The notes under the pieces were generated by a model that did not search any database, was not told the origin of the DNA, and saw nothing but the letters and a program-made list of their open reading frames with translations. A program made the position numbers and the translations under genes. Below, one piece after another: positions 48,888 to 61,848 of a stretch of 64,000 nt of DNA. The stretch is from NCBI GenBank assembly GCA_020724465.1, contig DYGX01000016.1, positions 1-64,000 on the forward strand, given 5' to 3'. Every line of letters begins with the position of its first letter. Position 1 is the first letter of the stretch. The DNA comes from Thermoflexus sp. GTDB taxonomy: Bacteria; Chloroflexota; Anaerolineae; Aggregatilineales; Aggregatilineaceae.

Positions 48888-49364
48888 ATGGCTGCTGACA
48901 TCAAATCGCACGTCTTGCGCCGGGATGAAAAGGGCTTCGCCGGGATTCCGTTCAAGCGCCTGCTGCTGGGCGGAGTCAGCGGCGGCATGACGCTCATCAT
49001 TGCCCGCTTCGCGGTGGGCAACCTGGCGTTCCTGCTGGCCGCGCTCACCTGCATCCTGGCGCTGATGCTGACCGGCTCGCGCGGTGGCCTGCCGCTCTGG
49101 CAGCGCCTGCTGTACCGGCTGCGGGGTACCCTGACGCTCGCCGCCGCCCGCAAGCCCAAGAGCCTGAGCGGTCGCCTGGGAAACACACTCGACATGCCCA
49201 CCGGACTGGTTGTACTTGACGCGGAGGCCGTGTTCGCGCCACCGGAAGGTGAGGTAGAGGCCGATATGACCGAGTGGGTCACCTTCGCACGAGCGGATGA
49301 GGCCGACCACGACAGCGGGTTGGTCTTCGTCGAACAGGCACTGGAGGGAGTCAGTCATGGCTGA
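48888..49364 (+). CDS. PrgI/VirB3-like conjugation protein
   Basis: A 158-residue membrane protein: a hydrophilic start (ADIKSHVLRRDEKGFAGIPF), one or two hydrophobic segments at about 25-65 (LLLGGVSGGMTLIIARFAVG, LAFLLAALTCILALMLTG), then LPLWQRLLYRLRGTL and an acidic tail. This matches PrgI, the VirB3 counterpart that partners the VirB4 ATPase in monoderm systems. AGAGGA precedes the ATG at 48888. The stop overlaps the VirB4 start by 8 bp. Confidence 0.62.
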   Translation: MAADIKSHVLRRDEKGFAGIPFKRLLLGGVSGGMTLIIARFAVGNLAFLLAALTCILALMLTGSRGGLPLWQRLLYRLRGTLTLAAARKPKSLSGRLGNTLDMPTGLVVLDAEAVFAPPEGEVEADMTEWVTFARADEADHDSGLVFVEQALEGVSHG

Positions 49365-51483
49365 TAAATCCGTGCCTGTGCGCACGTTCCTGATTGAACC
49401 CTTCGACATCATGCTGCACGCGACCGAAGAGGGCGTGCAGGCGCTGCAGGCGCGCTTCGCCACCTGGCTGCGCACCCTGCCGGGTCCGGCGCGCTTCTTC
49501 TGCTGGCAGACGCCCGCCAGCCTGGACGCGAAGATCGCCCAGGTCAGCCGCGCCGCCCGTGAAACCGATGACGAGCGCCGCGCCGCCCTGCTGATGGAAT
49601 ACCGCCGCCACTACGAGCTGCTGCAAGCCGAAGCGGATTACCAGCGTACCCTGTGCGGTATGGCGTTGTGGACGGATGAGACGCCGCGCGCCCTGGCCGG
49701 TGGCCTGATCTCCGCCTTCGACACGCCCGTTGTCGAAGCGCCGCTGCCCCCGCTCTTCGAGGGGCGCTACGAGCTGCGCGAATCCCCGTTTTGGCATCTG
49801 GCTCCGGTCGGGCGTCCGGGCGGGCGTCCGCTGCTGGCGGTGCTGACCGGCTACGAATTCTTGCCCGCCTCGTGGAACTTCTTCCGCCCGCTGGCCAGCG
49901 TGCTGCGGCTCAACATCCCGCTGGCGCTGGTAGTAGACATCCCCAAGACCTTCGAGCGGAATGCCGCCGTGGATGCGGTGGAGAACATCATCGCCGCGTA
50001 TCAGGTCCATCTGTCGGGCGTGCGCGGCGAGGACAGCCGCTCGGTCACGCGCATCAACGACTGCCGCCGCACGCTGCAAGAGATTAACGCCGGGGATGCG
50101 CTGCACCAGGTACAGATCAGTATCGCTGTCTTCGCCCCGGACCCGAAGACCCTCAAGCGCCGCGTGCATGAGGTCATCAACGAGACGCGGCCCTGGTTCC
50201 TGCTGCGTCAGGAAGTGGGCGAACTGCTGTCGCGCTCGGTGCAGTTCTTCTCGCACACGCCCACCCGGCTCATCACCATCCCGCCAACGACCTGGCCGGT
50301 CACGTCACGCGAGCTGGCGCTCATGCTGGCGCCGCTCGGCTACCGTAAACTGTCCACCACGGATGGGGTCTTGCGGGGTGAGGCAGTGGGTGCGGCCTAC
50401 CCGGTCTTCCACAACTCCTGGCGCGACAAACGCGCCACCCACGAGGTCTGGGTGGGAACGACTGGGTTCGGCAAGACGTTCCTGCTCAACGGCTACCTTT
50501 CGCGTGAATACGCCGAAGCCGGTATCCCGTTCGACCTGCTCGAACCAATGGGGCATGGCCGTCACATCGTCGAAGCCTTCAATTTGCCCTGGTATGTGCT
50601 CAGCGCCCGGCACACCTGCCTCAATCCGCAGGATGTCATGTTTCCGACGCTCATCGAGCAGAAGTCGCACACCATCCGCATCTACGAGACGGTCTTGGGG
50701 CGGCAGCTTTCCAGCGGGCAGCGCGAGAACCTGGAGCGCGGTTTGCTCGGTGAAGCGCTCGAAATCCTGTACGCGGGGTTTGGGGACCTGCAGGCGGTCA
50801 CACCCGACATCGCGCCGCTGTGTGAGACGGTGTGTGACGTGCTGGCCGGGTTGGGCGACAAACCGCACATTCAGCAGGTGGCACGCGACCTGGCCGACGA
50901 AATCGCCGGGCTGTGTACCGGCTCCGGTCCCTGGGCGAAATTCCTCAACGGGCACACAACCGTCGATTTTGGGCGCAGTGGTCGCCAGCAGATCGGTCCG
51001 CGCGTCTTCTCGTTCCACGAACTCGAAGGCGACCCGGTCATGACCGCGCTCGCCTACGCCCAGGTGCTCTCGGCCATCCGCCGCGACAGCCTGTACGACG
51101 AGCAGCCGCGCATCATCGCCGTGGATGAGGTCTACCGCCTGATGCGCCACCCGTCGCTGCTCGACTTCCTCATCGAAGCCGCCAAGACCTTCCGCACCCG
51201 CCGCAAGAAACTGGTGGTGATTGATCAGCAGATGAGCATCTTCTTAGATGGCAAGGCGCGATTGGTCTTCGAGAACTGCCCGATCCGCGTCATTTTCTCG
51301 CAGCGGCAGGGCATGAACGTTTTTCGGGAGGATGCCGCATTCCAGCACCTCAACAAACACCATCTGGACATCATCGCCAGCCTGCCGCGCTTTCAGTACG
51401 TGCTGGACATCCAGGACGAGGGGATTTTCTGGCTGGTCAATCGCGCGCCCCTCTCGGAAATCGCCCGCTTTGGGACTACCTAA
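49357..51483 (+). CDS. VirB4-like conjugation ATPase
   Basis: A 708-residue cytoplasmic ATPase that energises assembly of the type IV secretion channel. The N-terminal domain (about 1-350) is the VirB4/TraC-type non-catalytic part. Walker A is GTTGFGKTF (367-375), Walker B RIIAVDEVYRLM (about 587), with KLVVIDQQMSIF for the Gln-containing motif and a C-terminal RFQYVLDIQDEG. GGAGGGAG lies upstream of the ATG at 49357; a frame from 49297 would overlap the preceding gene further. It is the most secure T4SS marker in the window. Confidence 0.88.
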   Translation: MADKSVPVRTFLIEPFDIMLHATEEGVQALQARFATWLRTLPGPARFFCWQTPASLDAKIAQVSRAARETDDERRAALLMEYRRHYELLQAEADYQRTLCGMALWTDETPRALAGGLISAFDTPVVEAPLPPLFEGRYELRESPFWHLAPVGRPGGRPLLAVLTGYEFLPASWNFFRPLASVLRLNIPLALVVDIPKTFERNAAVDAVENIIAAYQVHLSGVRGEDSRSVTRINDCRRTLQEINAGDALHQVQISIAVFAPDPKTLKRRVHEVINETRPWFLLRQEVGELLSRSVQFFSHTPTRLITIPPTTWPVTSRELALMLAPLGYRKLSTTDGVLRGEAVGAAYPVFHNSWRDKRATHEVWVGTTGFGKTFLLNGYLSREYAEAGIPFDLLEPMGHGRHIVEAFNLPWYVLSARHTCLNPQDVMFPTLIEQKSHTIRIYETVLGRQLSSGQRENLERGLLGEALEILYAGFGDLQAVTPDIAPLCETVCDVLAGLGDKPHIQQVARDLADEIAGLCTGSGPWAKFLNGHTTVDFGRSGRQQIGPRVFSFHELEGDPVMTALAYAQVLSAIRRDSLYDEQPRIIAVDEVYRLMRHPSLLDFLIEAAKTFRTRRKKLVVIDQQMSIFLDGKARLVFENCPIRVIFSQRQGMNVFREDAAFQHLNKHHLDIIASLPRFQYVLDIQDEGIFWLVNRAPLSEIARFGTT

Positions 51484-51691: not shown

Positions 51692-53560
51692 ATGACCTGC
51701 CGGTTGCTTTTGGTCGAAAGCCCGGCCAAGCAGAAACGCATCGCCGCGATCCTGGGTCAAGGCTGGCGTGTGGAAGCGACACGTGGACACGTGCGTGACC
51801 TGCCCCAGGACAGCCTGGGCGTTGAGGTAGATCAGGATTTCCGCCCGCAGTACGAGGTGCTGCCGCGCCAGGCCAACACCGTCAAACGGCTGCTCAAGGC
51901 TATCCGTGAGGCGGAATCCGTGTTCGTGGCGACCGACCTGGACCGCGAGGGCGAGGCCATCGCCTGGCACGTCTTGCAACTGGCCGACCTGCCGCCCGAC
52001 AAGCCCGTCTACCGCGTGGCGTTTACGGCCATCACCGAGAGTGCGGTGAAGGCCGCCATCGCCGCGCCGCGCCCGCTGGATGTGAGCCTGGTCGAAGCGC
52101 AGCAGACGCGCCGCATCATCGACCGGCTGGTCGGTTACCTGGTGTCGCCGCTGGTCTGCAGGGCGCTGGACGGTTCTTATTCCGCCGGGCGCGTGCAAAG
52201 CGCGTGCTTGCGGTTGGTCGTGGAAAGGGAGCGGCAGATCGCCGACTTCACGCCAGAAACCTACTGGACGCTGGATGCCCGGCTAATGGCTGACTCCGCT
52301 GAGTTCACCGCCCGGCTGTATTCGGTCAAGGGGCAGCGCATCGAGCGCCTGAGCGGCGACCAGGTGGCCGCGCTCACCGGTGGGCTGAAAGAAGCGGTGT
52401 TCTGGGTGGGCAAGGTCGAACATGGCGAGCAGGTACGCCATCCCGCGCCGCCGTTCACGACCAGTGCCATGCAGCAGGCCGCCAGCCAGGCGCTGGGCCT
52501 GTCGCCGGAGCGCACGATGCAGATAGCCCAGCGGTTCTACGAGGCGGGGCACATCACCTACCACCGCACCGATGGGGCCGATGTCGCCCCGGAAGCGCAA
52601 GACGCTGCCCGCCGCTTCATTGCGCAGACCTGCGGCGGGGATTATGTACCCAACGAACCGCCGGTCTACCAGGCCAAAGCCAGACATGCCCAGGAAGCCC
52701 ACGAAGCCATCCGGCCTACGGACGTGATGCGCCCGCCGCAGGACATCGAGGGAGATGGAGCCGGGCTGTACGCACTCATCTGGCGGCGCTTTGTCGCCTC
52801 GCAGATGGCCCCGGCGCGCTATGTCGTGCAAACGGTCGAGGTACTGGCTGGCAAGACGCATGGCCTGCCCTACCCGCTGTCGTTTCGCGTCAAGAGCCGG
52901 ACGCTGGTGTTTGACGGGTTCCTCAAGGTGTACCAGGACCCGCCCGACCCCGACGCCGAGCCGGAAGAAAACCCGGTCCTGCCGCTGCTGTCCGAAGGCG
53001 CGGCGCTGCGACTGATGGGCTGGCTGCCGGTCGAGCGCCAGACCCAGGCTCCGCCGCGCTTCACCGAGGCCTCGCTGGTGCGCGAGTTGGAGAAGCTCGG
53101 CATTGGCCGCCCTTCGACTTATGCCAGCATGGCCCAGACGCTCAAGCAGCGCGGCTACGTGACGCTCAAGAGCAAGCGCCTGGTGCCCAGCGAGAGCGGG
53201 GTGGCGCTCTGCGACTACCTGACCGCCCACTTCCCCGACCTGTTCGCCGCCGGGTACACCGCCCATCTCGAAAACACGCTGGATGCGGTCGCCGGTGGCC
53301 AGATGGCGCGATTGGAGGTGCTGCGCGCCTTCTGGGCTGACTTCACACCGCAGTTGCAGGCCGCCGGACAGGCGATTCAGGTCACCAAACCTCAGTTGAC
53401 ACTCACCGGTGAAACCTGTCCCGTCTGTGGCGGCGACCTGGTCGAGCGCTCCGGCAAACACGGCAAATTCACCGGCTGCGCCAATTACCCCGACTGCGGC
53501 TACACGCGCGGCCTGGAACGCAAGCCGGTCACGCTGCACGGCGCGGGAGTCAGGGGATAG
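51692..53560 (+). CDS. Type IA DNA topoisomerase (TopA-like)
   Basis: A 622-residue topoisomerase I that relaxes negative supercoils by single-strand passage. TOPRIM residues Glu9 and Asp82/Asp84 (TDLDREGEAIAWH), the conserved SAGRVQSACLRLV, and the catalytic Tyr290 in HITYHRTDG are visible; RPSTYASMAQTLKQRGYV is the family C-terminal box. A single zinc finger ends the protein (CPVCGGDLVERSGKHGKFTG with later CANYPDC). ICE-borne TopA homologues (TraE/TopB type) occur in conjugative plasmids and help unwind transferred DNA. The acidic protein gene follows after 3 bp. Confidence 0.9.
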   Translation: MTCRLLLVESPAKQKRIAAILGQGWRVEATRGHVRDLPQDSLGVEVDQDFRPQYEVLPRQANTVKRLLKAIREAESVFVATDLDREGEAIAWHVLQLADLPPDKPVYRVAFTAITESAVKAAIAAPRPLDVSLVEAQQTRRIIDRLVGYLVSPLVCRALDGSYSAGRVQSACLRLVVERERQIADFTPETYWTLDARLMADSAEFTARLYSVKGQRIERLSGDQVAALTGGLKEAVFWVGKVEHGEQVRHPAPPFTTSAMQQAASQALGLSPERTMQIAQRFYEAGHITYHRTDGADVAPEAQDAARRFIAQTCGGDYVPNEPPVYQAKARHAQEAHEAIRPTDVMRPPQDIEGDGAGLYALIWRRFVASQMAPARYVVQTVEVLAGKTHGLPYPLSFRVKSRTLVFDGFLKVYQDPPDPDAEPEENPVLPLLSEGAALRLMGWLPVERQTQAPPRFTEASLVRELEKLGIGRPSTYASMAQTLKQRGYVTLKSKRLVPSESGVALCDYLTAHFPDLFAAGYTAHLENTLDAVAGGQMARLEVLRAFWADFTPQLQAAGQAIQVTKPQLTLTGETCPVCGGDLVERSGKHGKFTGCANYPDCGYTRGLERKPVTLHGAGVRG

Positions 53561-53563
53561 GCC

Positions 53564-54616
53564 ATGACCACCGCACCGGACTTCTTCCCGCCGGAACCGC
53601 CGCCGGACGAGCTGCGCTTCCTGGAAGAGCCGCCCGAAGAATACGACTATGAGCCGGAGCCGTTCATGGTCGCGCCGGGCCAGCAGGTACTGCCGGGCAT
53701 GGAGCCGCCGGATGAGCCGCCGGATCACTGGGCCTGGCTGGATGCGCGCTTCGTCGGGCTGGAACAGGTCGATGACCGCGGCAACCTGACCGGCTACGAG
53801 GTCGGCTGTGTGGACCTCTACGCCGACACCGTGTCGGGCGACCTGGGCGGCACGTTTCTGCGCGTGCAGGACTTCGGTCCGGACGAGCGGGATGAAGCCG
53901 AAGACCTGCTCAACCGGCTGAACGGCTACGCCGGCGAGAAAAACATGGCGGCACACGAACTGCCGGGGCTGGCCGAGAAGGTCGCGCGTCAGATCGCCGG
54001 GCGCGAGGGGTACGCGCCGCCGCAGTGGCGCGAACTCACGACCGACGAATACGGCCTGTTCGCGCGCGAGTTTGGCCTGGCTCAGGAAGCCGGGCCGGAC
54101 ATCCCGCCCGAATACGCCCATGACGAACTGCTGCGCACGGCCTATGAACTGGGCGGCGTGGAAGTCGAGCAGCCGGACCCCGCCGCGCAAGCCCTGCACA
54201 AGATTGGCCTGTCCGCCGAAGGCTTCGACCCCGACCGCGACATGCCGCCCTTCTACGACGAGACGACTCACACCGCCTACTGGGTCGGCATCTATCAGCC
54301 GCAGGCCGATGACCGCGAGGTATGCTTCGCCAGCATTCTTTCCCTGACGCGCGACACCGAGTCGGGGGCCTACGAGGCGCAGCTTGCGCCGTGTATGGTC
54401 GGGGACTGGGACCAGGCCTACGCCGCCAGCGAGCACCTCATCGGCATCGCGGAACGCAGCGAGGACATCGAGCGCGTCTTCGAGGCCGCCGAGGGGATGG
54501 CGATTGCCGCCAACCAGCGTGAAGGCTGGCAGCACGGGCGCGGCGTCTCGCTGGAGCCGGAATCGGCTCAGGGTATCGGCGAGTATGCGGCGCAGCAGTG
54601 GGAGTTGGAGCTATGA
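53564..54616 (+). CDS. Acidic modular protein A (unknown family)
   Basis: A 350-residue strongly acidic soluble protein, starting with a Pro/Glu-rich stretch (PPEPPPDELRFLEEPPEEYD). Two alpha/beta modules can be recognised: about 55-150 (WLDARFVGLEQVDDRGNLTG, YEVGCVDLYADTVSG) and about 225-320 (TTHTAYWVGIYQPQADDREV, AYEAQLAPCMVGDWDQAYAA). Each begins with an aromatic strand and ends in an Ala-rich helix. Between them stands PPQWRELTTDEYGLFAREFG, nearly repeated in the protein at 54828. No known domain is recognised; it could be a DNA mimic or a relaxosome factor. It sits in the T4SS operon. Confidence 0.6.
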   Translation: MTTAPDFFPPEPPPDELRFLEEPPEEYDYEPEPFMVAPGQQVLPGMEPPDEPPDHWAWLDARFVGLEQVDDRGNLTGYEVGCVDLYADTVSGDLGGTFLRVQDFGPDERDEAEDLLNRLNGYAGEKNMAAHELPGLAEKVARQIAGREGYAPPQWRELTTDEYGLFAREFGLAQEAGPDIPPEYAHDELLRTAYELGGVEVEQPDPAAQALHKIGLSAEGFDPDRDMPPFYDETTHTAYWVGIYQPQADDREVCFASILSLTRDTESGAYEAQLAPCMVGDWDQAYAASEHLIGIAERSEDIERVFEAAEGMAIAANQREGWQHGRGVSLEPESAQGIGEYAAQQWELEL

Positions 54617-54831
54617 GTGACCTGACCACCTCATTCACTTTCCGGCTGAGCCAGGAGGACAAAAGCGCCCTGTCGGAGCTGGCTGAACGGTTGGGCTGTG
54701 ACCGGGGCGCAGCGCTGCGCCGCTTCATCCGGCAGGCCAACGTGAAGCTCACATCCGGCGCACATAGTCAGTTCACGGTCAACGGTCGTGTGTTTCCGCT
54801 CAAGTTGGGTATGGGAGAGCGTGGAGAATGA
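54613..54831 (+). CDS. Ribbon-helix-helix protein
   Basis: A 72-residue small DNA-binding protein. The N-terminal TTSFTFRLSQEDKSALSELA and ERLGCDRGAALRRFIRQANV fit the Arc/MetJ ribbon-helix-helix fold, with a beta strand (TSFTFRLS) followed by two helices. The C-terminus QFTVNGRVFPLKLG adds a strand pair. Both ends overlap neighbours by 4 bp (ATGA), so it is tightly coupled to the two acidic proteins. It may autoregulate the operon or bind oriT. Confidence 0.7.
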   Translation: MSDLTTSFTFRLSQEDKSALSELAERLGCDRGAALRRFIRQANVKLTSGAHSQFTVNGRVFPLKLGMGERGE

Positions 54832-56885
54832 CAGAGCAGCACACTATCGTCCGCAAGGAATTTCCCAACGGCGACGTGGCCGTAGACGAGGGGAACGGCC
54901 TGGTCTACCACACGCCGGACGCCCGTTACACGGTGGAGCTGGTCCCCCCGCCGTCGCCCGGCGAGGATCCGTATGGGGTGGACCTGGTGCGCACCACCCG
55001 CAGCCAGCACGGCCTGGAACGGGCGCAGCGCCTGACCCTGGCAGAATACCGTTCCCAGATGGCGGCAGAAGCCCATGTCCACCAGGTGGAGCGGGCGCTG
55101 CTGGAGCGAGGGCGCGACGGACTGCTCGATGAAATGAACCGGGTCGAGACCATGCCGTTTGAGCCGGACACGGCCACCTACCTGACCGGCATCTACCCGC
55201 CGGAATGGAGTTCCGGGCGGGTCACACTCAGCGTCATCCGCCTGGAGGGGGAGCGGATAGAAGTGGCGCCGGTGGCCTACGGCCCGGTGGACAGGCTGGC
55301 AGCCGTGGACCAGCGTCTGGAGCAGGCCCTGGCCGAAGGCGGTCCCGCCCGGCTGCTCGATGTGGCAACCGCCGAAGCGGTACAGGCAGGCATTCTGCCG
55401 CCCGACACGCCGTTGTTTGCCCCTGCCGGGGGAGACTGGAAAGCGAACAGGCCGCTGACGGTGGAAGACCGGCCCCAAGGGCCTGTGCTCGCGGTGCCGG
55501 GTCTGCCGGTGACGCTGGGAGAAGACATGACCCCGTATGATGCCCAGGGGCGGTATGTGGCACACCACCTTGATGAGACGGGCACGGTCCATTTCTTCGC
55601 CGTGGTAGACCGCCCACCGGAGAATCTCATGCCGGGAGACGCCCCGCGCGAGTTTCGCTACTTCCGGGCACAGAAGACTGCCGACGGACAGGTGCTCCAC
55701 GACTCGCTGCCGGTGATGCCGGTGTCTGCCCCCGGCTCTCCCTGGCCGATTCCGCTCTTCAGCAGCCTGCTGGAAGACAACCGGCTGGAGGACGTGCAGG
55801 CGCTGGCCGGGGAACTGGCCCACCTGCACGACCTGCCGTTCCCGGATACACTGCCCCCGCTGGGGCAAGAGCCTCAGCCGGAGACTGGCTGGTACCACTA
55901 CGACACGGCGCTGGTTTTGGCGACACCGCAGGGAGTGGACGACAGTTACAGCGTGGGCGCGGTCGATGTCTACCGCAACCACCAGCGCGAAGCGTGGGCG
56001 GCGCGCTATCTGCCGATGGGCGAGTTTGACACGCTCGATGAGGCATTGGACGGCGAATTGATGATGATGCGCATGCGCAGCGAGGAGCGGCTGGCGCTAT
56101 CTCCCCCGCGGTTCCGCGACGAACCGGCCATCTACGAGCGCATCGCGCGCGCCGGGGCCGATGTCGCCCTGGCCGACCTGCTGGAGCAGCACGACGGACA
56201 CCTGCCGCCCGACTACGACGGGGACCACGAGCCGCAGTGGGAACCGCTCACCACCAGGGAATGGGAGGCCTACCGCGACTTTGTGCGGATGATCCGGCAC
56301 GCCGACCCGGAAATCGTGCCTGTCTACGGCACGCTGCCCACCGCCGTCCCCCGCTTCGCCGACGAACGGTTGGTCGCGGGCAGCGAGCAGCCCGCCCTGC
56401 CCTACCGCACGCCGGAGGACTTCGCGCCGGAGGTCGTCGCCCTGCCGACCGCGCTCGCCCCCACCTGGCGGCTCGACATCGTGCCCGCGCGCAATCCTGA
56501 AGGCGCGCCGTTGGGTTATTCTGCCGTGTGCGTGGTGGACTTCAGCGATCTGGCCGGGACGCTCTCGCCCGACTCATCGGAGCGCGGCCAGTGGCTCGAA
56601 GTGGCGCAGTTTACAACGGAAGAACGGGCCAACCAGTTCCGCGAAGACTTCATGTCGCTGGCGAACGCAGATGAGGCGAGTCGCCTCTCCGGCCCGGCTT
56701 TGGCTGAGGCGGTCGCGAATGACCTGGGCATGAGCGGCGGGTGGCAGGTGATGGACAAGGAGTCGCTGGAGAAGCTGAAGGCGGGGGAATGGGTAGTTGA
56801 ACATCCGGCTCAGGCATGGCAGCCCCGGCTGAATGAGGTATCCAGTCCGGCGCTGGAAGCTGCTTACCTCGATCTTGACCTGTAA
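54828..56885 (+). CDS. Acidic modular protein B (unknown family)
   Basis: A 685-residue acidic protein, paralogous to protein A in parts. At least three modules are visible: about 105-195 (TATYLTGIYPPEWSSGRVTL, IEVAPVAYGPVDRLAAVDQR), about 355-435 (WYHYDTALVLATPQGVDDSY, SVGAVDVYRNHQREAWAARY) and about 545-640 (WRLDIVPARNPEGAPLGYSA, GQWLEVAQFTTEERANQFRE). QWEPLTTREWEAYRDFVR (about 467) echoes protein A. The N-terminus has a beta-rich segment (VAVDEGNGLVYHTPDARYTV). No catalytic motif or membrane segment is seen. It is last in the plus-strand operon and followed by a hairpin. Confidence 0.6.
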   Translation: MTEQHTIVRKEFPNGDVAVDEGNGLVYHTPDARYTVELVPPPSPGEDPYGVDLVRTTRSQHGLERAQRLTLAEYRSQMAAEAHVHQVERALLERGRDGLLDEMNRVETMPFEPDTATYLTGIYPPEWSSGRVTLSVIRLEGERIEVAPVAYGPVDRLAAVDQRLEQALAEGGPARLLDVATAEAVQAGILPPDTPLFAPAGGDWKANRPLTVEDRPQGPVLAVPGLPVTLGEDMTPYDAQGRYVAHHLDETGTVHFFAVVDRPPENLMPGDAPREFRYFRAQKTADGQVLHDSLPVMPVSAPGSPWPIPLFSSLLEDNRLEDVQALAGELAHLHDLPFPDTLPPLGQEPQPETGWYHYDTALVLATPQGVDDSYSVGAVDVYRNHQREAWAARYLPMGEFDTLDEALDGELMMMRMRSEERLALSPPRFRDEPAIYERIARAGADVALADLLEQHDGHLPPDYDGDHEPQWEPLTTREWEAYRDFVRMIRHADPEIVPVYGTLPTAVPRFADERLVAGSEQPALPYRTPEDFAPEVVALPTALAPTWRLDIVPARNPEGAPLGYSAVCVVDFSDLAGTLSPDSSERGQWLEVAQFTTEERANQFREDFMSLANADEASRLSGPALAEAVANDLGMSGGWQVMDKESLEKLKAGEWVVEHPAQAWQPRLNEVSSPALEAAYLDLDL

Positions 56886-56920: not shown

Positions 56921-57067
56921 AACCGTTATCATCGGCAATACAACCTCATCTTTTGCCGTGCGTACATTCCAAATCGATGATGGTCGCCTCATTCGCGCAG
57001 ACAAATCTGTGTGAAGTAGAATGTGATCATCAACAGGTTCCTATATACGATTGCGCAGAAGGCGACC

Positions 57068-57508
57068 ATGCCGAGTTCCCATCTAGACAAAACCCTTGTT
57101 GGCCTTGCAGGGGAATTCCTGGTAGCTGGACACCTCTGTCTTAAGGGCTATGTGGCTTCACTCACCCTTAAGAACTACCCAGGAGTCGATATCTTCTGTC
57201 TGAACCCAAGAAATGGCAGGCAGGTAGCAATACAAGTCAAGACCATTCATGGTCACAGGGGAGGGGAATATTTCGTCCCTGAAAATGTGGATACGTTAGT
57301 CTGTCCTTTCGTCTTTGTCTTCATTGGTCCCGACGAGTCTGTTGAGTTCTTTGTTGTTCCAGCAGAACGGGTAGCGCACATTAGCGCCCAAGAGCGAGAC
57401 GATTATCTGCGAGCGCATCCTAAGGCGAAGCGCGAACAGCCCCGCATGATAAGGAAAAATAGCCTTCTGGATTACAAAGATCGGTGGGATTTGCTGGGGC
57501 TTGAGTGA
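57068..57508 (+). CDS. PD-(D/E)XK nuclease-like protein
   Basis: A 146-residue soluble protein with a restriction-endonuclease-like core: VGLAGEFLVAGHLCLKGYVA gives the N-terminal Glu helix, YPGVDIFCLNPRNGRQVAIQ VKT the Asp and Gln-x-Lys active-site strand. The start at 57068 is preferred for AAGG upstream; the frame is open to 57023. The region 56886-57510 has visibly lower GC than the rest of the ICE, a sign of separate acquisition. It might be a nuclease in defence or repair. It overlaps the convergent HU-like gene by 37 bp. Confidence 0.6.
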   Translation: MPSSHLDKTLVGLAGEFLVAGHLCLKGYVASLTLKNYPGVDIFCLNPRNGRQVAIQVKTIHGHRGGEYFVPENVDTLVCPFVFVFIGPDESVEFFVVPAERVAHISAQERDDYLRAHPKAKREQPRMIRKNSLLDYKDRWDLLGLE

Positions 57509-57808: not shown

Positions 57809-59815
57809 TTATCTCTCCCGCGCAGCAGCGACCCGCGCCCGATGCGCTTCCCTCATCTTCGTCAGCGAAATGAGCGGCGAAGGGATGCTTTCCATTCCCG
57901 TCACCCGCTCAGCCACCCGCTCCATCCTGGCCCGGTCAGGGCTGGGATTAGCGGCGGGGACGTTCTCCGACACGGTGACCGGCTTCAGGTTCAGGGAGAT
58001 GCCCCGCTCCAATAGCAGCGGTTCGACGTCCTTCGCGGCGGCGAATCGCTCCCGCCAGTCGCGGCGCTCATAGAGGCGCGTCAGGCGGGCGGTCAGGATG
58101 GCCTGGGTAGCGAAGTTCGGCTCGACATAGCGCGCGAAGATGGTGCAGTTGCCCGACTGCGGGGTGATGACCTCATCCACCGTCAGCAGCGGGCGCTGGC
58201 GCAGGTGGCTGTTGGGATCGTCGCGGTTCGCGTCCGCGGTGGCGATGCCGGACGCCTTCGAGTAGTACTCCGCCGTTTCCGCGTCGCAGCCGCCGAACAC
58301 AATCTGCGTCGCCAGGCCGGTGAGCAGCGCCTGCGTGCCTTCCTGCCCGTAGATCAGGTGGAACTGCCCCTTGGTCTGCGCACCAATGAGAATGGAGATA
58401 CGGCGCTTGCGTACCAGGTTCACATCGGCCACCAGGCTGTCGAGTTTGCCCAGAGTCGGGAACTCGTCCAGCACCACACCGACCGGCACGGGCAGCGGCC
58501 CGCCGTTCAGTTCGCCGATGGTGTCCAGGTCGAGCATCAGCTTGCGCAGCGTCGCGCCCAGGTAGGACGCATACACCGCCCGCATCCGGCCCGGACAGGT
58601 CAAGACGACCACGGTCGGCTGCGAGACGATCAGGTCCGCGCCGAAATCCGAGGCGCTGGTGTTGGCGCGCACGTCGGCAGAGGCCCAACCGGTCAGCGCG
58701 GTGGCGAGCGTGGCGACCACGTTAGCCGCGACCTTGCCATCCGACTTCGCGCTGGCGATGAAGGCGTTCGCCAGCAGCGAAGCGTCGTCCTTGCCTGCTG
58801 CGAGGGTCTCCGCCAGGGACTTGATGTCGTTGAGCGCGTTGTAGATGTCGCCCAGCGTGTCAAAGCGAATCAGACAGGCGGCCAGCAGCGCGGCGGCGCT
58901 GTCGCTCCAGAAGCGGTTGTCGCCGTGCGCGCTGGGGACCAGCACATCGGCAATCGCGCGGGCGTCAGACACGCTCGTGATGTCCGCCGCCAGGTTGTAA
59001 CGCGGCCCGGCGCTGCTGGTCGGATCATGCACAGCCACCAGATGCCCGGTCACCTGCGCAAAGCGAATGACGTGATCCCTGATTTCGCCCTGCGGGTCGG
59101 CCACGATCAGGCTGTGTCCGGCCAGCATCCGGTCGCCGATGACCGGCAGGATCACGCCCTGCGTCTTACCTGACCCCGCGCCGCCCAGGGTCAGGATGCC
59201 GCGCGCCGCATCTTCGCCGCTCAGGTGAAAGGTACCTGTCCCGTAATCCAGGCGCCACCTGTTCTCGCCCCAGAATGCGCCCAGGAAGCTCACCCCTTCC
59301 CGGTCCCGGCGGCGGTAGCGGCGGTACTCACGCATCGTGCAGAAATGGGATGAGCCGAGCGAGCCTCTACGCACAGCCGGGCGGCGCATCCGGTCCACGC
59401 GCTCGCGCAGCCACCCACCCTGGCGCAGACCCTCATGCACGGCGACATTCGCCACGCACACCGCCATACACCCCAGCAGTCCGGCCATGAACAGCCGCAT
59501 CCGGTTGACGGTGAGCGGTCCCCCTGCCATCGAGGTAATGAATCCATTATCCACCTGCGGCATAGTCGAGCGACGGATGGCAAAGTCACCCATCAGCGTG
59601 AGATACAGCGCAAAGATACCCAGCGAGACGATCCCATGTGCCAGCAGGCGCAAGACGAAATCGCGGCGGGTGCTCTGCTTTTCCCGGTCGGTGCGGCGAA
59701 TGGATGTGCCCATCAGGGCGGCGGCCATGACGGGAGCCAGGGGGATCAGGCACAGCAGCGGCGCAAGACAGCCGCTCAGTGCCGCCCGACCTTCGGTGAA
59801 CAGCCAGTAGAACAC
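57809..59815 (-). CDS. VirD4/TraG-type coupling protein
   Basis: A 668-residue membrane ATPase that brings the relaxase-DNA complex to the secretion channel. N-terminal hydrophobic segments lie at about 12-36, 58-76 and 108-128. Walker A is GGAGSGKTQG (211-220), Walker B VGVVLDEFPTLGKLDSLV (about 440-457), with IVADPQGEIRDHVI and ARYVEPNFATQAI typical of TraG/VirD4. It follows the relaxase gene by 12 bp and lies in a minus-strand operon with the MobC-like and HU-like genes. Confidence 0.9.
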   Translation of the reverse strand: MFYWLFTEGRAALSGCLAPLLCLIPLAPVMAAALMGTSIRRTDREKQSTRRDFVLRLLAHGIVSLGIFALYLTLMGDFAIRRSTMPQVDNGFITSMAGGPLTVNRMRLFMAGLLGCMAVCVANVAVHEGLRQGGWLRERVDRMRRPAVRRGSLGSSHFCTMREYRRYRRRDREGVSFLGAFWGENRWRLDYGTGTFHLSGEDAARGILTLGGAGSGKTQGVILPVIGDRMLAGHSLIVADPQGEIRDHVIRFAQVTGHLVAVHDPTSSAGPRYNLAADITSVSDARAIADVLVPSAHGDNRFWSDSAAALLAACLIRFDTLGDIYNALNDIKSLAETLAAGKDDASLLANAFIASAKSDGKVAANVVATLATALTGWASADVRANTSASDFGADLIVSQPTVVVLTCPGRMRAVYASYLGATLRKLMLDLDTIGELNGGPLPVPVGVVLDEFPTLGKLDSLVADVNLVRKRRISILIGAQTKGQFHLIYGQEGTQALLTGLATQIVFGGCDAETAEYYSKASGIATADANRDDPNSHLRQRPLLTVDEVITPQSGNCTIFARYVEPNFATQAILTARLTRLYERRDWRERFAAAKDVEPLLLERGISLNLKPVTVSENVPAANPSPDRARMERVAERVTGMESIPSPLISLTKMREAHRARVAAARER

Positions 59816-59827
59816 GGATACTCGCCC

Positions 59828-60484
59828 CTAGCGCGGGAACCACAGGTCGAGACTGTCGGAATCGGTCGGGATGTCGTGCGCGACTTGCGGCTCTTCCCGC
59901 AGCCGACGCCACTCCGGGCCGATGGTCCGATCCAGCGCCTGCTCGAATTCCTCGCGGGCAATGTCATTGAACAGCGCATCATGCCCCTGCCGTTTGTTGA
60001 TGTACAGGGGTTCCCATCCCCCAACGGTCGGAGCCAGGCCCGGCAGGATCACGTGCGTATGAAGCTGCTGTTCGCCTTCTTTGGTCTGTCGGTCGTGCAA
60101 AACGTAGCTGTAGCGCGGAATCTGGAAACCGAGCGCCTCGTAGTAGGCTTCCACGATACGCTCGGTCACGTCCATGACCAGGGCGCGGCGGCGCTCTTCT
60201 GGTACAAGAGCCATCAGGTCCGGCGCAGGCGAGATCACCCAGGTCCACGCCAGCACATGTCGGCTCTTGAGCCGGTCGCAGTTGGCCTGGATGTCGCGGT
60301 AGTGCGCGCCCAATCCCCGGTCCTGCCAGCGGTCACGCAACTTGCTGGGGCTGGCTTTGGTGTTGGGATCCTCGCGATACTGGAAATACTTGAGCGCGCC
60401 GCGCAGCCCTTTATGGCCGCTGCCGCGCCCCCCTCGCGTGGGCGATTTGTACTTCAGGTCGGCGACGATCAGGGCCTTACTCAT
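59828..60484 (-). CDS. Small relaxase-like protein (MOBP-type)
   Basis: A 218-residue protein. The metal-binding motif is seen as YVLHD (His130) and LHTHVILPG (His142, His144), which fits the HUH three-histidine pattern of MOBP relaxases. Candidate catalytic tyrosines are Tyr33 and Tyr36 in ALKYFQYRED. Relaxases nick oriT and stay covalently bound during transfer; the protein is short and has no helicase or primase extension. The ATG at 60484 is chosen over a GTG at 60490 and overlaps the upstream MobC-like gene by 8 bp. The coupling protein gene follows. Confidence 0.68.
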   Translation of the reverse strand: MSKALIVADLKYKSPTRGGRGSGHKGLRGALKYFQYREDPNTKASPSKLRDRWQDRGLGAHYRDIQANCDRLKSRHVLAWTWVISPAPDLMALVPEERRRALVMDVTERIVEAYYEALGFQIPRYSYVLHDRQTKEGEQQLHTHVILPGLAPTVGGWEPLYINKRQGHDALFNDIAREEFEQALDRTIGPEWRRLREEPQVAHDIPTDSDSLDLWFPR

Positions 60485-60875
60485 GGTCACGCACGGCGTC
60501 TATCTGCGCCTGGATGGCAGCGGCGTTCTGCTGAGCGGCGATGATCGCGGCCTGGATCAGCTCACCGGCGGTGATGGGCTGTTCGGTGAACACCGGCAGC
60601 ATGACCGCCAGCCCGTGTGCCAGCAGCGCCGTGATGAGATGCAGGTGGAATTCCAGGTCAGCTTGCAGCTCATCGATCCGCTCCTGGAACGCCTTACGGA
60701 AGTGCGCCCGGCTGCCTACGACATCTTCCTGGCGATCCAGGTACTCGCGGATAGCCTGGCGGATCAGGTCCGCCTCGGTGACGTCGCGCGTTTCGCGGGC
60801 GAGAAGCTGCTGCAGGCGGGCGCGCAGTTCAGGCGTCATGGCGATGCTGCGGCGGACGGTTTTGGTCGCTCGCAT
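60477..60875 (-). CDS. MobC-like ribbon-helix-helix accessory protein
   Basis: A 132-residue protein. The N-terminus VRRSIAMTPELRARLQQLLA and EADLIRQAIREYLDRQED is a ribbon-helix-helix with the strand SIAMT. A long helical C-terminal half (about 60-130) rich in Ala, Gln and Leu may form a coiled coil. AAAGGG lies upstream of the ATG. Its position directly before the relaxase gene and after a hairpin-dense intergenic region suggests an oriT-binding relaxosome protein. Confidence 0.68.
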   Translation of the reverse strand: MRATKTVRRSIAMTPELRARLQQLLARETRDVTEADLIRQAIREYLDRQEDVVGSRAHFRKAFQERIDELQADLEFHLHLITALLAHGLAVMLPVFTEQPITAGELIQAAIIAAQQNAAAIQAQIDAVRDHE

Positions 60876-61479: not shown

Positions 61480-61848
61480 CTAGAAGGGCAACGAGTCCTC
61501 GTCTGCGCCGGTGTCGGCAGCCGGCCCGCGCCTGGTGATGATGAACTCCACGCGGCGGGCGGTCACTTCCAACTGGCCCTGCGGCGTCTTGTCCTGCGCG
61601 CTCCACACCGCCACCTGGAAGCGCTCCGCGTGCACGCAGACCAGGTCACCCTTGCTCAGGTACTGGTGGCAGGCTTCCGCCTGTTTGCCCCAGACCGCGA
61701 CCCGCACCCAGACGGTGGTCTTGCGCTCACCGTATCCCTGGTCAATCGCCAGGTTGAAGTTGGCGACCGGCTCGCCGGTCTGCGTTGTGCGGAGTTGAGG
61801 ATCGTTGCCGAGACGACCGCGGAAGATGAGCGTAGCTGAGGTGGACAT
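61480..61848 (-). CDS. ssb: Single-stranded DNA-binding protein
   Basis: A 122-residue SSB with an OB fold: FRGRLGNDPQLRTTQTGEPV, ANFNLAIDQGYGERKTTVWV, VAVWGKQAEACHQYLSKGDL and VCVHAERFQVAVWSAQD. The C-terminal acidic tip DEDSLPF matches the protein-interaction tail. It lacks a long Gly/Gln linker, as is common for mobile-element SSBs. AAGGAG precedes the start. It protects ssDNA during conjugative transfer or ICE replication. A terminator follows and a large nested inverted repeat lies upstream. Confidence 0.9.
   Translation of the reverse strand: MSTSATLIFRGRLGNDPQLRTTQTGEPVANFNLAIDQGYGERKTTVWVRVAVWGKQAEACHQYLSKGDLVCVHAERFQVAVWSAQDKTPQGQLEVTARRVEFIITRRGPAADTGADEDSLPF

Follow-up and report, generated by a model that had tools for sequence, protein, structure and literature searches.

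The window analysed here is a stretch of 64,000 nucleotides from a Thermoflexus sp. contig that carries a set of conjugation genes (Table 1). Among these are two genes for acidic proteins, here termed A and B, and a small ribbon-helix-helix (RHH) gene. The topA stop codon is separated from the start of A by a 3-nt gap, A and the RHH gene overlap by the tetranucleotide ATGA (54613-54616), as do the RHH gene and B (54828-54831), and all of these genes have the same direction. A first-pass annotation, made from the sequence, described two acidic proteins of 350 and 685 residues coupled to an RHH gene. Both statements hold: the open reading frames are where that annotation placed them, the calculated pI values are 4.07 for A and 4.51 for B, and there is an ATGA overlap at each junction. 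The RHH protein belongs to the RHH/CopG proteins by its match to PF01402 (E 6.1e-5, 23.3 bits vs a cut-off of 20.5).

Table 1. Features of the A/B region and of neighbouring conjugation genes in the window
Feature	Position	Strand	Remark
VirB4-like ATPase	49297..51483	+	putative, from context and motifs; sub-threshold Pfam TraG P-loop
Topoisomerase IA, one zinc ribbon	51692..53560	+	PF01131, 1.4e-105; directly upstream of A
Protein A, 350 aa, acidic, two modules	53564..54616	+	44 aligned homologues
A N-tail, residues 1-53	53564..53722	+	acidic, proline-rich, low confidence, net charge -13
A module M1, residues 54-150	53723..54013	+	b-b-b-a-a, VGxVDxY core
A module M2, residues 206-326	54179..54541	+	TAYWxGIY core
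A C-terminal tip	54599..54613	+	WELEL
RHH protein gene	54613..54831 (ATG start); alternative GTG start at 54598	+	ATGA overlap at each end
Protein B, 685 aa, acidic, five modules	54828..56885	+	
B module D1, residues 34-106	54927..55145	+	
B module D2, residues 118-190	55179..55397	+	TATYLTGIYPP core
B module D3, residues 245-340	55560..55847	+	predicted secondary structure as in others
B module D4, residues 354-430	55887..56117	+	VGAVDVY core, nearest to A-M1
B module D5, residues 545-651	56460..56780	+	in nearly all B proteins
B C-terminal tip	56871..56882	+	DLDL
VirD4/TraG coupling protein	57809..59815	-	PF02534, 4.5e-35; proposed tip receptor
HUH-type relaxase candidate	59828..60490	-	ends SLDLWFPR; family-invariant Tyr and three His
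Element-encoded SSB	61480..61848	-	ends DEDSLPF; near relaxase candidate

Compared with the closest relative, dN/dS is 0.15 for A, 0.25 for B and 0.06 for VirB4. The values for A and B represent purifying selection, so both genes are coding. Within the operon B evolves fastest, with 60% identity where VirB4 has 92%. Antisense to topIA and A runs an open frame of 750 aa (window 52283-54535, minus strand), which is most likely artefactual, a product of high GC content in coding sequence. A 161-aa open reading frame at 57023-57508 (plus strand) has a GVDIFCLN...VAIQVKT pattern that resembles the PD-(D/E)XK nuclease fold; it has no Pfam match and no homologue among the 47 related loci.

The gene order virB4, small gene, topIA, A, (RHH), B recurs in most of these 47 loci, of which those cut by contig ends display part of the neighbourhood, and VirD4, HU-like and relaxase genes are usually near. 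The placement of A and B inside a conjugation operon, as originally proposed, is thus borne out by conservation of the operon in Anaerolineae relatives. In nearly all loci, A is immediately preceded by topIA. About two thirds of the loci have an RHH gene between A and B; as no homologue was detected there in the other third, RHH is not an obligate partner. The relaxase family has Y23, Y40, H138, H154 and H156 invariant in 14 members, in keeping with an HUH-type enzyme; Pfam support is weak (TrwC, 0.0025, in 2 of the 14).

In the genome samples searched, A/B proteins are confined to one Anaerolineae order. The A profile has matches in 36 of the 154 genomes searched from the order and in two of 400 in a sample of the phylum, these two being the window's own genome and one weak partial match. 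A profile of the C proteins, the relatives present in divergent systems, finds 33 of the 154 and one of the 400, the latter from the same order. Most relatives with a name are metagenome assemblies from Anaerolineae, among them Aggregatilineales and OLB13. No homologues were found in plasmids or IMG/VR with A and C as queries, nor in phages with A as query. To our knowledge, little has been established about the mechanism of conjugation in Chloroflexota.

What kind of proteins are A and B? Neither has a convincing match in Pfam, NCBIfam, PHROGs, PADLOC or PDB sequences, in agreement with the earlier view that no known family is evident. Even with the threshold relaxed to E 0.05, Pfam assigns no domain to the A and B proteins of the window; other members have scattered weak matches. 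Those to PAS, YycE-like and AP2 domains, in a few B proteins from outside the window, are short pieces or have scores below cut-off and are attributed to chance. Comparison of the predicted structures with the PDB by Foldseek and VIA-align gives best Z values of 4.0 (A) and 5.5 (B), which is chance level, and the matches to WGR, PUR, Rad52 and topoisomerase C-terminal entries do not rise above noise; the modules may nevertheless adopt a known fold. At the level of sequence, A and B represent a novel family of acidic proteins built from modules, within a conjugation system of Anaerolineae, and their beads a new domain family.

The modules are predicted to be beads. Structure prediction with 44 A and 37 B homologues places two of them in A and five in B, and each consists of three antiparallel strands and then one or two helices. 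The beads are well scored, D4 of B below the others; the linkers score low, above all residues 420-542 of B. Predicted packing between domains is uncertain (pTM 0.44 for A, 0.37 for B), and neither model positions the beads relative to a partner.

Relatedness of the modules is found at the profile level. A profile of eight A proteins matches B with E 3.8e-5 in a whole-genome search, and a 44-sequence M1 profile matches B residues 355-410 (4.5e-7) and 586-648 (1.2e-3); the VGxVDxY core noted in the first-pass annotation is therefore common to A and B. Iterated profiles connect M1 with D4, D5 and D1, and M2 with D2 and D1, whereas none of 81 reversed and 318 neighbour proteins used as controls matched at inclusion level. 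Profile-profile comparison agrees. The TAYxxGIYxP core, also proposed as shared, is weak in a direct search, but A-M2 and B-D2 are joined by the iterated profiles and, in profile-profile comparison, at E about 1e-27 (99.8%). For D3, a sequence link to other modules is not significant, and only predicted secondary structure is in common. The PQWxxLTT stretch, thought to be a further common segment, is colinear in its position after M1 and D4 but not significant by itself (E about 0.5). A repeated module was proposed as well, and profile statistics support the repeat; its length is about 75-105 residues and not a fixed 90. Other B proteins have three to seven recognised modules, and the range across relatives is one to seven. 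Among the invariant positions of the 44 aligned A homologues there is no catalytic set, and the beads thus look like multivalent binding units. One family has a third module-bearing protein of about 600-775 aa 3' of B (L104 9285-11612, L106 13589-15379, L100 13439-15751), with the ends FDLEI in L104 and TELDL in L106.

Acidity is a property of the whole family: median pI is 4.05 for A and 4.26 for B, and net charge per residue is -0.17 and -0.13, respectively. Much of this charge is in tails and linkers, the modules being moderately acidic (-0.05 to -0.12 per residue). The neighbours in the window are mostly neutral or basic, i.e. VirB4, the topoisomerase, VirD4, the HU-like protein and RHH.

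The C-terminal ends of A and B offer the strongest clue to function. They have the acidic-hydrophobic pattern [DE]-Φ-[DE]-Φ-COOH, where Φ is hydrophobic. A proteins end in WELEL, WEVEL, WEIDL and similar sequences; B proteins end in PELDF, PDFDL, LDLDL and the like, after highly variable linkers. Of the non-redundant proteins, 15 of 19 A and 15 of 18 B have this tip; among 106 non-redundant members of other conserved element genes, none does. Inner offsets almost all lack it. In B it is at the very C-terminus in 29 of 34 proteins, and 20 inner offsets give no case; in A, where 34 of 44 have it at the C-terminus, seven have it at one inner offset. The tip is short and degenerate, and in A its final codon runs into the start codon of the following gene.

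Relaxases carry the tip as well. Among 18 non-redundant relaxases, five have it exactly and one nearly so (TLDL), and most of the others have a longer D-Φ-[DE]-x-(W/F)F ending. The canonical relaxases end in DLDxWFPR or IDLDDFFSR, and that of the window, with SLDLWFPR, has this extended form and not the exact tip. As a whole the window relaxase is not acidic, and the tip on relaxases is therefore not a matter of composition. When all loci are taken together, 78 of 644 gene-like open reading frames carry the tip, and these encode module proteins (L112 7073-8353 being counted as such through its A-profile match) or relaxases, with the exception of one DUF4058 protein adjoining a divergent virB4. 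Like the C-terminal acidic signals of type IV secretion systems (T4SS), the tip is conserved and located at the C-terminus. A relaxosome or transfer role gains support from the presence of the tip on relaxases; the first-pass annotation, with the tip unseen, had raised a relaxosome role as one possibility.

How might these observations be combined? The modules, their number, the acidity, the operon and the tip common to A, B and relaxases are observed; to these we would add, with a probability of about 0.5, that A and B are non-enzymatic, multivalent acidic adaptors or cargo, recruited together with the relaxase to VirD4 by a common C-terminal signal. The tip would be functional, recognised by the transfer machinery and most likely by the VirD4 coupling protein, and would bring A and B to the channel together with the relaxase-DNA complex. 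There, the beads, strung on flexible linkers, may gather DNA-processing factors in the donor, or A and B may themselves be cargo that enters the recipient. Relaxases are established substrates of VirD4 coupling proteins. In a T4SS there is precedent for a coupling-complex protein that binds acidic C-terminal signals (PMC5802825). A tip on A, B and the relaxase most simply suggests a common receptor, VirD4 being the first candidate. In F-type conjugation, SSB and PsiB are transferred, with relaxosome-VirD4 engagement (PMC8406263). Several observations count against this reading: the tip is brief and loosely defined and in A shares sequence with a start codon, the window relaxase does not have the exact tip, the DotM ligands are longer and Glu-rich, the tip is akin in character to the acidic tail of SSB, and the structure models give low confidence in domain packing and place the beads next to no partner.

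The Legionella signals bound by DotM (PMC5802825) resemble the A/B tip in being acidic, C-terminal and read by a coupling-complex protein. They are longer Glu-rich stretches, whereas the A/B tip alternates acidic and hydrophobic residues, is at the very end and is common to relaxases. A more tentative proposal is that an undescribed acidic-hydrophobic signal sends relaxases and bead proteins with the DNA into the recipient, where the beads would protect or establish the incoming strand. Should A and B prove to be transferred, their tail would represent a T4SS signal of a new kind, usable for finding other cargo by sequence. A tail on the relaxase and two accessory proteins also provides a simple handle on substrate recognition, as five residues can be deleted or swapped, and the natural variation in bead copy number makes the role of valency testable.

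The main rival, which we consider unlikely, is that the tip works in the manner of an SSB tail, docking A, B and the relaxase on a DNA-processing enzyme such as the neighbouring topoisomerase IA, host SSB-binding proteins or the primase. On this view A and B would serve as scaffolds while the transferred strand is unwound and primed, and would not be substrates for secretion. SSB tails, whose last residues are likewise acidic-hydrophobic, recruit many partners (PMC7145534); the position of topIA next to A, the element's own SSB and the additional D/P/F-rich motifs in the N-tail of A are consistent with such docking. The host SSBs end in YPF or DLPF, and all three SSB tails of this genome end in Pro-Phe (SLPF, EYPF, DLPF), an ending that A (ELEL), B (DLDL) and the relaxases do not have. 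This difference is not decisive. That relaxases also carry the tip, and that in some divergent systems the module gene is located between virB4 and topIA, argues further against SSB-like docking.

Could A and B imitate DNA and so block restriction or other defence nucleases in the donor or recipient? ArdA and Ocr are acidic antirestriction DNA mimics encoded by mobile elements, and A and B are similar in being acidic and element-encoded. Family-wide acidity, together with the rapid evolution of B and a variable bead number as in an arms race, fits this reading, as does the frequency of anti-defence genes in conjugative elements (PMC11541004). It is nevertheless judged improbable: A and B have no sequence match to ArdA or Ocr, nor any match to known antirestriction families in PADLOC or Pfam, ArdA-type models included; they are beaded, with modules less charged than their tails and linkers; and the genes are in the transfer operon and not in a separate cargo region. 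Least probable is that the modules act as relaxosome accessory factors together with the RHH protein and bind DNA, single- or double-stranded, at oriT. An RHH gene often lies between A and B, and the folds are weakly like nucleic-acid binding b-b-b-a folds (WGR, PUR repeats; Z at most 4.0), but the proteins are strongly acidic, those structure matches are at noise level and RHH goes undetected in about a third of the loci.

Two further known systems invite comparison. TraM of the F plasmid is a relaxosome factor of the RHH type and docks to TraD (PMC8406263); its parallel here is the RHH gene of the transfer region. In the present system, RHH forms a small protein of its own, and it is A, B and the relaxase that bear a docking-type tail. 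The polyvalent proteins of phages and conjugative elements (PMC5512222) are likewise multidomain, variable in domain number and encoded by conjugative elements. They mix enzymatic and other catalogued domains, several different ones per chain, whereas A and B have one uncatalogued type of module and no enzyme domain was found in them.

Divergent systems, with virB4 genes 64-67% identical, have either a single C protein of two to three modules with a repeated linker, RxDPRLFTEGPPDPFTT, or one-module proteins. The C proteins were found by neighbourhood and end in DELEL, DEVEL, DEIDF, HEIDF or VDMDM. Of three one-module proteins found by module homology alone, two have the tip (VDFDL, VEMDL) and one is a near miss (GIDL); additional one-module proteins end less exactly (DHEIE, QVEIE). 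L149 2145-2660 and L148 3025-3567 are examples of proteins with one module. A protein with a DUF4058 match (L115 5156-6175) ends in GLDMEL, and one that resembles it by eye (L110 8879-9952) ends in LDFDLD, both ends being the tip or close to it; the two adjoin virB4 or topIA in divergent systems.

A second type of relaxase (L067 3089-4117, L063 3519-4517, L066 3012-4025, L089 2487-3485, L097 2944-3942) is longer at the C-terminus by about 100 aa, an extension with an M2-like pattern which ends in a tip of the A/B type, i.e. ELDL, EIDL or DIDF. Profile comparison of this extension with M2 gives E 3e-4 in one direction, above controls, and 0.01 in the other, within controls; this sequence likeness is suggestive only of a relationship to M2.

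In several relatives (loci L117/L118, L119/L120 and L122/L123, and also genomes G358, G319 and G318), virB4 is split at a conserved codon, about 645 (...DQ/QMS...), by inserts of about 25-42 kb. A recombinase was not identified in them. The inserts are read as a second mobile element, which probably uses the ICE's own virB4 as its target. Where read, they encode their own tip-bearing relaxase, an RHH protein, a DUF927/PriCT-type primase and an actin-like ALP protein, and at least one carries DISARM-type defence genes.
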